Assembly: GCF_002804105.1 (NCBI RefSeq)
Contig: NZ_CP024964.1
Span: 248,001-312,000 of the forward strand
Direction: 5' to 3'
DNA from: Mesoplasma melaleucae
GTDB lineage: Bacteria > Bacillota_I > Bacilli_A > Mycoplasmatales > Mycoplasmataceae
DNA length: 64,000 nucleotides
In this document: positions 108 through 58,217 of the stretch, one piece after another
Position numbering within the stretch: the stretch's first letter is position 1
Layout: the number at the start of each line of letters is the position of its first letter
Position numbers and translations under genes: made by a program
The notes under the pieces: generated by a model
The model's database searches: none
Told to the model about the DNA's origin: nothing
What the model saw: only the letters and a program-made list of their open reading frames with translations

Positions 108-296
108 TTATTTCACCATTAAAGTTATTTCAGCACTCTTATAAGATTTACAAGGAACTATTTTAATAACTTCTTTTTCTAATAATTTTTTATCTATTTT
201 ATTTGTATGATTTAAAATTGATTCTTGTTTTTTAACATCGAAAAAATCAATTTTTACATTATCTATTGTTTTATCTTTTTTGATTTCTTTTGACAT
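108..296 (-). CDS. Small hypothetical protein (62 aa)
   Basis: A 62-residue, highly charged protein opening MSKEIKKDKTIDNVKIDFFD, without membrane segments or signal peptide. The ATG at 296 is preceded by a good Shine-Dalgarno, AAAGGAGAAAG, seven bases upstream; a TTG one codon earlier is a less likely start. Its first 26 bases overlap the end of the HU-like gene (271-543) in another frame, and its stop almost touches the next ATG at 106. This makes a tight three-gene operon. I do not recognise a family. Confidence 0.6.
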   Translation of the reverse strand: MSKEIKKDKTIDNVKIDFFDVKKQESILNHTNKIDKKLLEKEVIKIVPCKSYKSAEITLMVK

Positions 297-543
297 CAAC
301 TTTCTCCTTTTGTTCGATCATTTTGATTTCTATTTTTGTAATGTTCTGATACGTTGAGCATTCTTCTTTTTTAACCACCATAGTTTTACCTAGTGGTGTA
401 AATACACAATCATATTCATTCATGGATTTTAATAAGTGTGCGTACACTGTATTTATTAAGCCTTTAGCTTTGCGTTGGCTTATATTGTGTTTAGTTGCAA
501 AGTCTTTTATATATTCTGTTTTGGTTAATTTTGTGATAAACAT
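271..543 (-). CDS. HU/IHF-like DNA-binding protein, divergent
   Basis: About 90 residues. The first 60 resemble the N-terminal half of HU: the start LTKTEYIKDFATKHNISQ corresponds to the helix 1-turn-helix 2 pattern of HU (TKKEL...A...GLS...), followed by a helix and then VFTPLGKTMVVKK, where HU has VxLPGFGTFxVxxR. The usual GFG motif is altered to LGK, and the DNA-binding arm region is replaced by a lysine-rich tail. An AGGAG lies directly before a tandem ATG-ATG (546/543), so the second ATG is the likelier start. Such proteins on mobile elements often help organise relaxation or replication complexes; that role is inference here. Confidence 0.6.
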   Translation of the reverse strand: MFITKLTKTEYIKDFATKHNISQRKAKGLINTVYAHLLKSMNEYDCVFTPLGKTMVVKKEECSTYQNITKIEIKMIEQKEKVDVKRNQKR

Positions 544-562
544 CATCTCCTATTTGTATTGG

Positions 563-592: not shown

Positions 593-997
593 ATGTATTG
601 AATTTTTTTAGAGAAAATACTTTCAATGATGTACATACCAATTCTTATATCTATTGGTTTCATTATTTTAATAGGATTGATTTACTGGCTAAGTAATAAA
701 TATGATTGACCAATAGAGATCTGATCTTTGGAATTATTTAAAAAACAAATTATAGTATTTTTCACTGTTTGAGGAATAAATATTTTCATTATTTTAGCAA
801 TCGGTTTCTTAGGTTTATATACCCTTGCTTGAAATGATGATTTCCTTGTTAAGCTTTATAATTTTTCATTAAAACTTTTAACCGAAGTTATGACCACAAT
901 AATAATTGCAATTGGATATATTCAACTAACTGTTTTTGGTGGTTGAAATATGTATTTATCTTTCAAAATTAAATCTGAGTTAAAAAACCAATCATAA
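593..997 (+). CDS. Membrane protein, unknown function (134 aa)
   Basis: A gene of 135 codons on the plus strand with five in-frame TGA (Trp) codons, which hide it from a standard-code search. The product has three strongly hydrophobic stretches: residues about 12-33 (ILISIGFIILIGLIYWL), 53-77 (IIVFFTVWGINIFIILAIG) and 93-115. The tail is basic (KIKSELKNQS). The start is set by AAAGGAGAA before the ATG. Its last 29 bases overlap, tail to tail, the minus-strand membrane gene at 969-1235. It is the only plus-strand gene in the accessory region. No family recognised. Confidence 0.7.
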
Positions 998-1235
998 CTA
1001 AGACATTAACCAGAAGAACGTTTGCAGAAAATATAATTAAATATATTTCGAAGAGTTTTTTAAACTCTTTTTTATTTTTAGTTTTGATGTCATTCCTATC
1101 TGTTGAAAAATCTTTTTCTTTTGACTCTTTCTTAAAAAATCTATATTTATTGATAGCTAATATTCCAAGAATTATTGAAAACACAAACGAAAGAACAATT
1201 AAACAAATTATTGATATCGTCATTGATCCGCTCAT
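969..1235 (-). CDS. Two-TM membrane protein (88 aa)
   Basis: 88 residues with one membrane helix at about 6-28 (ISIICLIVLSFVFSIILGIL), a lysine-rich loop, and a second helix at about 66-86. A strong Shine-Dalgarno (AAAGGAGAAAAG) precedes the ATG. It follows the 1251-1664 gene after 15 bases, so it is the distal gene of the relaxase operon. The 3' end overlaps the convergent membrane gene (593-997) by 29 bases. A role at the envelope during transfer or in surface exclusion is possible but not shown by the sequence. Confidence 0.65.
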   Translation of the reverse strand: MSGSMTISIICLIVLSFVFSIILGILAINKYRFFKKESKEKDFSTDRNDIKTKNKKEFKKLFEIYLIIFSANVLLVNVLVMIGFLTQI

Positions 1236-1250: not shown

Positions 1251-1664
1251 TTAATCATTTTTTATATAAAATTTTGACGTATAAATTTTTCTTTCTTGTT
1301 CTTGTTCAATAAAATATTTAATGATTGATTCGCCACTTAACTGATATATTTCCTTAACATCGCCTTGAATATTTTTATATACACTATATTTTTTAAGTGG
1401 ATCAATAGTTAATTTTCATGATTTATTATTTGTCTTAGCTTCTCATTCAAGTTCTTGCATTTGACAATAATACTCACTAACATTTATTCAACAAAAATTT
1501 TCAGACATGGGTATTAATGATGAAGGGATTTTAACTAAAAAAACTTTAATTTCTTTTTCCTTACCTGTTTCATTATCAAATGTTTTTGTAATTTTAAAAG
1601 TGTTTTTTAAATGCACTGTTTTGATGTTTAATATCACTTGACCGTTAGTTTTAATAAATGCCAT
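1251..1664 (-). CDS. Hypothetical protein (137 aa)
   Basis: 137 residues, opening MAFIKTNGQVILNIKTVHLK, with three in-frame TGA Trp codons. The composition suggests a soluble beta-rich N-terminal half and a charged C-terminal half. It starts eight bases after the relaxase stop codon; that stop (TAA) is itself the first part of this gene's ribosome site TTAAGGAG, so the two are tightly coupled. Its own stop lies 15 bases from the next gene. No motif recognised. As an accessory gene directly after a relaxase it may be a mobilization helper, but this is only inferred from position. Confidence 0.7.
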
Positions 1665-1672
1665 AGATCTCC

Positions 1673-3211
1673 TTAATTAAAAAGTTTGTTATTTGTTGAT
1701 TTATTGTAATCAATTGTTCTTTGTAATAAATTTGCGTTTCTTTTTGCCTGTAAATAATATTTATTAATCACATTATTAACTTGAAAATTTATTTTGTTTT
1801 GCTTTCACTTTTCCTCAGAATAATCTTTTTTAGTAAAATCAAGTTTATTTTTTTTATTATTGAAATTCCTTTGTTTTGCTTTTGCATTATCGTATTCTTT
1901 CAATTCTTGAATTAATATGTTTGCTAAATTAGGTATTATTCCTTGAAAATTATTATTTTCATCTTTGCTTAAAATATTTTTATTAAAAAACTGATTTTTT
2001 TTAAATTTTAAAAATTCCTTTTCGTCATCTAAATTGAAATTATAATCTCAACCTTTTTCTTCATTTGTTAAATCAAAATTCTTAATATTATCAATTTCAC
2101 TATACTCATTTTTATAAGTTTTCAAAAAACGCTTAAACTCTTGTTCAGCATAAACTGTATTTTCTTTTTGAAATTCATCAAACGATGATTTTAATTCTGG
2201 TACTGAATCAATAAATGTATAAGTTAAATTAACTATTTCTTTTCTTGTTTTATGACTAAGTTTTTTAGAACCAAAAGTTAAATTAAAATTCTCTGAAGAA
2301 ATTTTTTTAATTTTATTACTCAGTTTATTAATCACTTTATTAGGTAATTGAGTAGAATTTACTAAATCATCAAAAACTTTTTTGTAATCAAGTAAATTTA
2401 AATTATATTGTTCTCTGACATTGTCTTTACTTTTAAATAAATCATCAAATGTTTGTTTTCTTGTTTTTATAGAATGAGTTATATTTAGTTCTAAATCTCT
2501 TATTGAATTTTTGTCCAGTTTTCCCATTTTTCTAAATTCCTTTTTATTTCCATTTCATTTTGTTGGAACTTTTTCAAAGAAAGAAAAATGAAAATGTGTA
2601 TTGTCTGTATTTTTATGAAAAGCCAAAACAGTTTCCATTTGTTTAATGTTAAAATCATTAAATTTTAAAAATTCTTTTAAGTTATTTGAAACAATTTTAT
2701 GAAATTCATGTCCATTGTAAATTTGTTGCTTCTCCATAAAATCATTAGAAAAAGAAATAACACCTGATCAAACAATTTGATTTTCAGCGTCAATTTTTTT
2801 AAACGCCTGTTTTTTTCAATATAAAGCTTTCTTACTTATTTCACCATTTAGATCATAAAGACCAGTTTTATATTCCTTTTGTGCAGTAATTTCACTTAAT
2901 GCTAAATAATAATCTTTAAAACTTTTTTTCCTTGTTGTTTTAATTAAATCTTTTTTATCATCTAAATCTAGAGTACCCAATAAACTGTTTAATTCATTAA
3001 TTTGTTCTTTGAATTTAATTTCAGCTTGTTTCTTTTTTTCACTTAACAAAGCAATTTCTTCTTTTGTGAAATCAATTTTCATTACAGCTTCGTCTCTGGA
3101 AATATAATTTAAATATTCACCTGACTTATATCAATTTGCTTTTTTACTTATTTTTGGTATTCCATTTGAAACATATTTTATATCAACTAACGTAGGATAA
3201 TTTTTAATAAT
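1673..3211 (-). CDS. Relaxase-like protein, MobL/MobP2 type (512 aa)
   Basis: One continuous 513-codon frame with six in-frame TGA Trp codons (residues 27, 132, 148, 219, 388, 469), so a standard-code reading shows only fragments. The N-terminus contains NYISRDEAV with Tyr36, matching the conserved segment at the start of MobL-type relaxases. Residues 199-208 read HKNTDNTHFH, a typical HxxTDNxHxH of HUH relaxases that binds the metal, followed by FSFFEK. The C-terminal half is lysine/asparagine-rich and helical. Such enzymes nick the transfer origin and bind the 5' DNA end through tyrosine. The start is probably ATT at 3211: GAGGTGATC, near-perfectly matching the 16S 3' end, lies just before it, and the previous gene stops at 3204. 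No ATG occurs until residue 44, after the conserved segment. Confidence 0.75.
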
Positions 3212-3593
3212 GATCACCTCACGTGATTTGGGAAATATCCTTAATACCTTTAACTTTATATACAAACTTATTATTTTCTAATATATTTCCACTTGTTAAA
3301 TTTTTGTAAAATGTATTTGACTTGAAATAAATATGTTTAAAAGTTTTGGGAAAGAATAAATTTTTTGTAAATGAGCATTCAATAAATCTTATCTTTCTTC
3401 ATTCAGAATCAAACTCAAATATGCAACTTTGAAATTTACAATTTTTAAATTTGACTTTTGAAAATTCAGCAGAAAAAGTAATATTTCTAAATACACAATT
3501 TATAAAAATAGAATTATATATTTTCTTGTCGTGTAAATAAGCATTTTTAAATAGTTTATTTTTAACTATCAAATTGCCTTTTATTGATTTCAT
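3204..3593 (-). CDS. Pentapeptide-repeat-like protein (129 aa)
   Basis: A 129-residue protein with an irregular repeat of Phe/Leu every five residues and small polar residues between (FINCVFRNITFSAEF, VKFKNCKFQSCIFEF, IRFIECSF), like a pentapeptide-repeat right-handed helix of about 70 residues. Some pentapeptide proteins mimic DNA and protect gyrase; nothing here proves that. The ATG at 3593 has AAAGGAAAAG upstream. It begins inside the preceding gene (32-base overlap) and ends eight bases inside the relaxase, so the whole chain is translationally linked. Confidence 0.6.
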
Positions 3594-3897
3594 TACTTTT
3601 CCTTTCTTTAGTTTTGACATTTTTATTTTTAATATAACGAAGAACAAATTTAGTTTCATCGTTACCATTTGCAGAAATAATTTGTTTTAAAATTCAGTAG
3701 TGATCATGTTCAAGAACAGTTAAATTTTTTATGGGTTTTTCAATATTATATTTTTTATAGTAAATACTTGAACTAATAATTTCCTTATTCAATTGATCAC
3801 AAATTCTATAAATAGTTTCAAAAGTATATTTTCTAATTAAAGTTTCTAGGCTATGATAATCTTTTGTACTTAAAGGATATAAATATTTTTTACTCAT
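3562..3897 (-). CDS. Hypothetical protein (111 aa)
   Basis: 111 residues opening MSKKYLYPLSTKDYHSLETL, with one TGA Trp codon. It is predicted soluble, helical at the start and strongly basic in the last 30 residues. An ATG at 3903 is also possible, but AAAGG sits six bases before the ATG at 3897, which is preferred. It overlaps the upstream gene (3890-4210) by eight bases and the next gene by 32. The basic tail could bind nucleic acid; no family recognised. Confidence 0.6.
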
Positions 3898-4210
3898 CAG
3901 CATCCTTTATATCAACCAAGTAAAATTTATAGGATATATCCGATTCTTGTAAATATTTGTTTTTTTTATTTGGTCAAAAATTTATTGAAATAGATATATC
4001 ATCTCTTTTTCCATCATTTCATAGCTTTCAAGCCTTATCTATTGTTTCTTTATCTTTTGTAAAACTTCAGAAGTAGTCCATTTTTATATTTACTTCTTTC
4101 TTTCTAAATTTAATTTTTATTCACTTACTATTTTTATTAAATGTAGAATCTGAAAATATTATTTCTTCAATCTTAATATTTGTAAGAAATATTGTTGAAT
4201 CTATATTCAT
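3890..4210 (-). CDS. Hypothetical protein, first gene of relaxase operon (106 aa)
   Basis: 106 residues, opening MNIDSTIFLTNIKIEEIIFS, with five TGA Trp codons, no membrane segment and mostly acidic/basic alternation. It begins the run of overlapping minus-strand genes that leads to the relaxase. The ribosome site AAAGGA is about 14 bases before the ATG, rather far, so initiation may be weak. No family recognised. Confidence 0.55.
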
Positions 4211-4422: not shown

Positions 4423-4447
4423 AAAAAGTGGGGAATGCCCACTTTTT
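4423..4447. terminator. Bidirectional terminator-like hairpin
   Basis: AAAAAGTGGG and CCCACTTTTT form a perfect 10-base stem with a GAATG loop. It lies downstream of the permease gene, which ends at 4548, though 100 bases away. The A/T arms allow use in both directions. Confidence 0.6.
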
Positions 4448-4475
4448 ATAGACCCCCCAACTTTGTTTTACTCCC

Positions 4476-4501
4476 AAAAAAAAAAAAAAAAACTGTATAA
4501 T
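4476..4501. repeat. Run of 17 A followed by TATAAT
   Basis: Seventeen consecutive A (4476-4492), then CTG and TATAAT (4496-4501) on the plus strand. Length-variable A or T runs beside -10 boxes switch surface genes on and off in some mycoplasmas. Here no plus-strand gene follows; transcription would run antisense into the permease 3' end. Confidence 0.5.
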
Positions 4502-56000: not shown

Positions 56001-56006
56001 ATTATA
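56001..56006 (-). promoter_or_regulatory. -10 box of serine hydrolase
   Basis: TATAAT on the minus strand 25 bases before the hydrolase start codon. Confidence 0.5.
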
Positions 56007-56056
56007 TGCTTTATAAAAATAAAAAATACTTCATTTTAAATATTAAAATAAATATT

Positions 56057-56090
56057 AAAAAGTGCAATCTATGATAGATAGCACTTTTTT
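56057..56090 (-). terminator. Terminator after PTS gene
   Basis: AAAAAGTGCAATCT and AGATAGCACTTTTT form a long stem with one mismatch and an ATGAT loop, T-rich on the minus strand. Confidence 0.7.
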
Positions 56091-56114
56091 ATTGAACTTT
56101 AATTATATTAATAA

Positions 56115-58217
56115 TTATTTTTTAACTTTTCTTTGTTCATCTAAGATTTTAATCATACGAGGTTTAATAGCTTCTTGTTCTCCACCATAAACAACTTGTA
56201 CGTTTGTTCCTCTAATTAGAGCTCCTGTAGCTCCTCCTAAAGAAATAATTCCATCTTTATCAACTAAAGAACCGTCTTTAACAGTTAAACGTAAACGACT
56301 AGCACATGCATCAACGTCAACAATGTTAGATTCTCCTCCTAAGAATTCAATAATTTTTGTAGCTTTTTGAACTCTTGCTTCTTCAGCTGCATCAGCTTTG
56401 TTTGCAGTTGATTTGCTTCCTTCAATTTTGCTTCCATCAACATTTAATCCTTTTGATGCTTTATAATCAGCTTTTGTTGCTAATGCAACGCTTGCACTAC
56501 CATCACGCCCTGGTACCATAACTTTTCCATATTTTACTGCGAAGTAGAATGAGAAGAAGTATGCTGGTGCCATTGCGGCTGAAACCCCTAAAATTGCGAA
56601 TGCTGATTTAGCAGTCATAGCTTTTGATCCGAAGAATGGAATTACTCCGAATACGATGTAATCGATAAATCCTCCAGATACTGTCATTGATACGTGAGTT
56701 TTGAATAACCCAGCAAATAAGAATGAGATAGCTGCTAATGGCATATGTACACCATAGAATAATCATGGTGCTAAGAATAAGAATGTATATTCGATTGGTT
56801 CTGTAATTCCTGTTAAGAAACAAGTAAAGGCTGCTGAGAAGTAAATTCCCATAACTTCTTTTCTGTTTTCTTTAGGTACATTTAATCACATAGCTAATCC
56901 AGCCATTGGTAATCCTAATAACATAAATCCGAATTTACCTGATTGGAATCTACCAATATTTAATCCTAAGTGTTCTAAGTCAGTAAAGTTTAATACTTTA
57001 ATATTAGCAATAACTTTATATGCCATAGTTTGGTCACCCATTGATTGTCATAAATCAGTGTATTGTGTTGAAATATTTGTTTTAATGATGTTAAATGCTG
57101 CTTCTGTAGCTTCAGTAATTCCTCAAGCTTGTGCTATATCAACATGATTTTTCATTCAAATTTCAACGAATGCTTTTTGTGCTTCAGGAGTTGTTGTTGA
57201 ATTAAATGCTTCAGCAATTGATCCTCCAGCATTTGTTCATCATAATGGTGCGTAGAATACGTGGTGTAATCCAAATGGAACTAATGAACGTTCTGCAACT
57301 TCATAAATGAATGAATCTAATCCACCAGGTAATTTACCTGATGCTTGTCCAAATGCTGCTAATCCCATACCAACGTATGGTCAAATAAACATAAAGATAA
57401 ACGATAAAGGTATAACAGCAACGAAAGTTACGATTGGAACTAATTTTGTTCCACTAAAGAAACTAATTGCTGAAGGTAATTGTGTTTGGTGGAATTTATT
57501 GTAACATTTAGCTGCAATAGCACCAACGAAAATACCAGCAAATACTCCTGTGTTTAATGAAGTAACACCAATGTTTGATGTAATTAATCCATTAGGAATT
57601 TTATTAATTCATAATAATGAGTAATAAACTGATCCTGCTCCATCAATCAATTCACGGTTAGCATTAACAACTAATCCTTTTCCTGATTCTGCTACTTCTA
57701 AGCTTGAAGCAGATACGTATGAAATAACATCTTGCATGTTAATTCCTGAAGCAGCTCAATCAACTCCTCCATTTGCATAAACTAATTGATGTCATCCATC
57801 TTTTGTTTTTGCGAAAATAGTTGCTGTATCCATTACTTGTGTGTGTAATAGAGCTGCTTGCATACCATTCATAACTAGGAATCCTACAACAGCTGTAATA
57901 GCTGCAATTCCTGAGTCTTTAGTATATGCAAGTGCAACTGAGATACAGAATAACACTGGTAAGTTTCCAAAACATACATCACCCATTTTGTTTAGTAATG
58001 TACCAAAGAAATATCCAAAGCTATCTGCACCTGAATTTGAAGATATAGCCGCTCCTACTCCTAAGAAAACTCCTGCGATTGGAAGTAATGCAATAGGAAG
58101 AAGGAAGGCTTTACTTAATTTTGAAAGTGTAGGCATAATATTTCCACAACCATTTTTGAACATGTCTCAAGAGCGTTTAGCACTACCTTTTCATTCAATA
58201 GAAGAAAAACTTTTCAT
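56115..58217 (-). CDS. ptsG: Glucose-type PTS permease, EIICB
   Basis: 700 residues. It imports and phosphorylates a hexose. Residues about 30-590 are the EIIC domain ([51 protein letters not shown]; the latter contains the sugar-binding Glu). A linker of about 30 charged residues precedes EIIB with the phosphorylated cysteine in [11 protein letters not shown] (Cys638) and [19 protein letters not shown]. No EIIA is fused. A long loop in EIIC (roughly 160-230) is unusual. Glucose is the likely substrate by similarity and because pgi follows in glycolysis, but other sugars of the family are possible. RBS AAAGGA. Confidence 0.88.

Follow-up and report, generated by a model that had tools for sequence, protein, structure and literature searches.

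We analysed a 64,000-nucleotide stretch (the window) of the Mesoplasma melaleucae genome, a single contig of 845,295 bases, of which the window covers positions 248001–312000. Near its left end, minus-strand genes around a gene for a MobL-family relaxase lie next to a terminal inverted repeat. In window coordinates, the features are:

108..299, minus strand: 63-aa protein (list of open reading frames); the next gene, for a DnaI/IstB-like ATPase, extends beyond the window
271..546, minus strand: 91-aa protein, weakly HU-like (PF00216, E=0.0099, under the cut-off)
969..1235, minus strand: 88-aa membrane-like protein (list of open reading frames, Pfam scan)
1251..1664, minus strand: 137-aa protein just downstream of the relaxase, with nothing over the cut-off in Pfam
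1673..3211, minus strand: MobL-family relaxase gene, 512 aa in code 4 (PF18555, alignments, fold)
2588..2617, minus strand: HKNTDNTHFH, residues 199–208, predicted three-histidine metal site (H199, H206 and H208 invariant, 34/34)
3104..3106, minus strand: codon of Tyr36 (YISR), predicted catalytic tyrosine (invariant, 34/34; matches the Y26 region of RelLS20)
3204..3668, minus strand: 154-aa pentapeptide-repeat-like protein immediately upstream of the relaxase (PF13599, E=7.8e-6, under the cut-off)
3212..3220, minus strand: Shine-Dalgarno-like GAGGTGATC, directly before the ATT at 3211
3562..3903, minus strand: 113-aa protein (list of open reading frames)
3890..4210, minus strand: 106-aa protein (list of open reading frames), the gene nearest the right end of the element
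4423..4447, no strand: perfect 10-bp hairpin AAAAAGTGGG-N5-CCCACTTTTT beside the element end, also present in the second copy
4451..4478, no strand: right terminal inverted repeat GACCCCCCAACTTTGTTTTACTCCCAAA, with its left partner at genome position 220267

Elsewhere in the window, positions 56001–58000 have a G+C content of 0.33 versus 0.26 in the surrounding sequence, and gave no RNA family match.

The relaxase frame is read on the minus strand from window position 3211 to 1673 and comprises 512 sense codons followed by TAA, while the plus-strand translation of the same interval is full of stops. The original prediction had described a single frame here with six TGA and no other stop, without giving the strand, and this frame is indeed present. 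At the base composition of the window, the chance of 513 codons without TAA or TAG is about 2e-14. The six in-frame TGA (residues 27, 132, 148, 219, 388 and 469) are all the Trp codons of the frame, which has no TGG, and in a single-sequence alignment W148 falls on a Trp of the solved relaxase 9qq7. Since the 31 window ORFs of at least 250 aa contain 142 TGA versus 11 TGG, code 4 is the code of this genome. Table 11 splits the frame into seven pieces of 44, 104, 15, 70, 168, 80 and 43 codons (numbering from a TTG at 3265), and as foreseen the standard code gives only fragments, of 15–168 codons. The ATT at 3211 is the likely start codon, because GAGGTGATC lies just before it and the homologue in G058, a genome of another genus of the same family, has an aligned ATG start. 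Both relaxase copies in the M. melaleucae genome have ATT at this place (window 3209–3220, minus strand). ATT is a rare start codon, and expression of the relaxase may therefore be weak.

The predicted protein matches the Pfam family MobL (PF18555) with E=4.3e-13 and 49.5 bits, over the cut-off of 28.5. NCBIfam MobP2 and MobP3 (NF041498 and NF041499) match the whole nuclease domain with E of about 1e-11, but their 45.3 and 46.3 bits are far under the curated cut-offs of 200 and 150. Of the proposed MobL/MobP2 affiliation, the MobL part is thus borne out by the profiles, whereas membership in MobP2 or MobP3 is not. The segments YISRDEAV, starting at Tyr36, and HKNTDNTHFH are located where they had been reported. 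An alignment of 34 mollicute relatives, with 16–44% identity to the window protein, shows only five invariant residues besides the start Met, namely Tyr36, His199, His206, His208 and Glu213, and the tyrosine/HxH arrangement is accordingly conserved in the homologues. RelLS20 has its catalytic tyrosine, Y26, in the corresponding N-terminal motif, and its metal is bound by the three histidines (PMC5313138). The five invariant residues are the catalytic set expected of a relaxase, and together with the fold they predict the corresponding mechanism.

Comparison of the relaxase profile with PDB proteins gave one notable match, the relaxase 9qq7 (E=1e-21). The AlphaFold model (AF2) had a pLDDT of 82. 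A plain Foldseek search with this model yielded no significant match; in VIA-align alignments of the Foldseek candidates, the top eight chains were all conjugative relaxases (Z 8.4–10.3, residues about 5–257). The best structural alignment was with 2ns6, MobA of R1162 (Z 10.3), while unrelated helical matches ranged from Z 6.6 downward. Profile, alignment and fold strongly support a MobL/MobP2-like HUH relaxase as originally predicted, and judged from sequence and model the window gene is a genuine MobL-family relaxase, a further member of a known family.

The gene is located within a 32.2-kb element (genome 220267–252475), of which the window contains the right 4.5 kb. The left and right terminal repeats, 32.2 kb apart, are inverted and identical at 19 of 25 positions. 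Minus-strand genes between them encode a UPF0236 transposase, an Mbov_0396-type membrane protein, VirD4, VirB4, methyltransferase-like proteins, the DnaI/IstB-like ATPase and the relaxase. The UPF0236/Mbov_0401 DDE transposase, encoded 184 nt from the left repeat, matches NF046004 (E=3.6e-73, 247 bits versus 162), the Mbov_0397-type VirB4 matches NF045975 (E=1.5e-258, 860 bits versus 590), and VirD4, as a 694-residue fragment, is over the cut-off of NF045973 (253 bits versus 250). A mobilizable element, as originally proposed, does not fit this gene content: the element itself encodes VirB4, VirD4, channel proteins and a DDE transposase, all flanked by terminal inverted repeats, and is thus built as a self-transmissible ICE. 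Going by gene content and predicted fold, the gene very probably encodes the relaxase of this 32.2-kb mollicute ICE (MICE). Mycoplasma ICEs typically have an 8-bp target duplication; none was seen by eye at the ends of this element, the right flank of which is a poly-A run. A search for an oriT yielded nothing beyond AT-rich repeats and a single terminator-like hairpin (4423–4447), a candidate for a terminator or an oriT, and the published NCR1/A hairpin TGGCTCAT-N5-ATGAGCCA had no match in the loci searched for it.

Further genes were observed in and around the element. Inside the ICE, an AAA/OLD-like ATPase (locus L009, 14677–16110, minus strand) has a weak likeness to anti-phage MAD3 (NF047739, E=5e-13, far under the cut-off). 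Three consecutive methyltransferase-like genes (locus L006, 6044–9808, minus strand) were classified by eye as HsdM-like, 169-aa and Dam-like, and no restriction or specificity partner was noticed. Just outside the left end, genome positions 216095–219768 hold genes for RecT, a possible single-strand-binding protein and nuclease-like proteins, perhaps part of another mobile element.

A second, decayed copy of the element lies inverted at genome 341.8–350.5 kb, 92 kb from the intact one. Over the shared 4.5 kb the DNA is about 99% identical, and the copy retains the relaxase end without VirB4, its relaxase being broken into pieces. The end common to both copies is at window position 4478, at TTTGGGAGTAAAACAAAGTTGGGGGGTC (read inward). 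Both copies border an FtsX-like permease gene, of which only a C-terminal fragment is present at the second copy.

MobL relatives were found in 14 of 60 genomes of the family and in 57 of 320 genomes of the order. The original statement that chromosomal relaxases are seldom described therefore holds for naming, since they are unnamed in the MICE papers that we found, but MobL-like genes themselves are common. The same cluster occurs in G058, with the same set of channel, VirD4 and VirB4 genes and, immediately before VirB4, a relaxase of 43% identity; the 38 kb read there did not contain a second copy of the terminal repeat of the element. Linkage of MobL to VirB4 recurs in other families. Among the matches listed for the order, we compared 82 places matching the MobL profile with 148 MICE VirB4 places. 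For 53 MobL places a VirB4 lay within 40 kb; the two shared a strand in 50 cases, and MobL was mostly some 10 kb upstream of VirB4. When MobL places on first contigs also holding VirB4 were counted, 40 of 53 had VirB4 within 25 kb, compared to 3.8 expected from random placement (2000 trials, largest value 11, contigs taken as 1 Mb). Many genomes of the Hominis and Spiroplasma groups have a relative with intact motifs next to a MICE VirB4. Several Hominis-group MICEs, among them those of M. spumans, M. anseris and G492 (probably M. bovis PG45), have a MobL gene that adjoins VirD4 or overlaps it.

About a third of the MICE VirB4 places among the matches listed are accompanied by a MobL relative. 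The remaining 95 of those listed, some on short contigs, have no MobL nearby, and as this applies to two thirds of the places, MobL is not obligatory for MICEs. For 20 MobL-less MICEs (L182–L201), the 20 kb upstream of VirB4 contained neither a profile match (best E 0.034) nor a convincing H-x-H protein. PF03432 gave nothing over the cut-off in 35 MobL-less genomes. Because MobL is linked in many MICEs and absent upstream in the 20 checked, it marks one MICE class, of which it is likely the relaxase. Our data somewhat favour the broader view that MobL is the hitherto unnamed relaxase of a large MICE class, to which the ICE of a Mycoplasma bovis genome belongs, and that MobL-less MICEs form a second class with an unrecognised nicking enzyme or another transfer route.

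The decayed copy, which has the relaxase end without VirB4, could suggest that the relaxase gene comes from a mobilizable element distinct from the ICE, or from a remnant, that happens to sit within the ICE or next to it. This copy is, however, a remnant of the same element by its DNA identity, and in the intact element the inverted repeats enclose the relaxase gene, which is read in the same direction as VirB4 and VirD4. As the linkage to these genes also recurs in G058 and other families, we consider chance nesting very unlikely. The relaxase fold might instead be used for rolling-circle replication of the excised circle or for plasmid-like maintenance, with conjugation carried out by another enzyme. 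HUH enzymes also act in replication, and many MICEs without MobL are nevertheless presumed mobile, but assignment of the window protein to the MobL family and the position of MobL next to the coupling-protein gene in several MICEs, as is often seen for relaxase genes, make such a use very unlikely. The lack of a detected target duplication, the ATT start and the broken second copy would be compatible with a fossil element, with an ICE and a relaxase that have lost their function. The intact frames for the relaxase, VirB4, VirD4 and the transposase, together with the preserved catalytic residues of the relaxase, render this rather unlikely.

For a MobL relaxase acting in transfer of this ICE, the following cycle can be proposed. 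The UPF0236/DDE transposase would excise and circularise the element at the terminal inverted repeats, and the relaxase would nick one strand at an oriT by means of Tyr36 and a metal bound by His199/206/208, remaining attached to the 5′ end. VirD4 would then pass the nucleoprotein to VirB4 and the membrane channel. After entry of the strand into the recipient, the relaxase would recircularise it and the transposase would reintegrate the element. Of this picture, nicking, an oriT, transfer and the order of steps are inferred, and what the analysis shows directly is the sequence family with its catalytic residues and fold, the gene neighbourhood, the ends of the element and the recurrent relaxase–MICE linkage.

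In the ICEA study, CDS1, CDSA, CDSC and CDS30 are essential without predicted function, and the model draws an unnamed relaxase (PMC6030558). The word relaxase is absent from a 2020 review of mycoplasma genomic islands (PMC7466169). In a table from 2019, the MobM relaxase domain is given as a Phyre2 hit for ICEHo CDS3 (97.6%), a result taken no further there (PMC6813540), and the M. anseris ICE is reported to contain CDS3 and CDS5 (PMC7648426). Since this ICE is reported to have CDS3 and its MobL gene overlaps VirD4, and in view of the Phyre2 match, we regard the MobL relaxase as the most likely identity of CDS3. In the M. bovis-like locus L113, MobL follows a 280-aa ORF and stands just before VirD4, which is the place of CDS3 in ICEHo and ICEF. 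Identity of the Hominis-group MobL with ICEA CDS1 was considered and rejected: published CDS1 has about 263 aa, and the 280-aa ORF of L113 is separate from MobL. The relaxase idea has a published seed, and our comparison supports it across genomes. No relaxase is named for ICEA in the open-access MICE literature that we found, and earlier naming elsewhere is possible.

Mycoplasma ICEs are drivers of gene exchange on a large scale, and a relaxase figures in the ICEA model without being named. A candidate with predicted catalytic residues opens this step to point mutation. The MobL profile may help to find ICEs of this kind that escape standard ICE finders, and the presence or absence of MobL splits MICEs into two groups.

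Compared to RelLS20 of Bacillus subtilis pLS20, the MOBL prototype (PMC5313138), the window protein is alike in its N-terminal catalytic Tyr, its three-histidine motif, a Pfam MobL match over the cut-off and a nuclease domain of about 230 aa. It is distant in sequence, the non-mollicute plasmid relatives found being 24–29% identical, has a longer C-terminal helical part and UGA-Trp codons, and is carried by an ICE with a DDE transposase and not by a conjugative plasmid. By tblastn, annotated MobL relaxases with 27–28% identity were also found on plasmids of 15–29 kb in Spiroplasma corruscae and Mesomycoplasma neurolyticum. ICEHo CDS3 of Mycoplasma hominis was modelled to MobM and its probable counterpart in M. 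anseris, a MobL relative, overlaps VirD4; it was not discussed there as the ICE relaxase (PMC6813540), and CDS3 was reported absent from ICEA 5632. In contrast to the mycoplasma ICEs, the element described here has an identified MobL and extra methyltransferase-like genes. With ICEA, ICEB, ICEF and ICEHo it shares the Mbov_0397 VirB4, VirD4, the Mbov_0396-type protein, inverted repeats, a size of about 32 kb and the Mbov_0401/UPF0236 transposase at one end.
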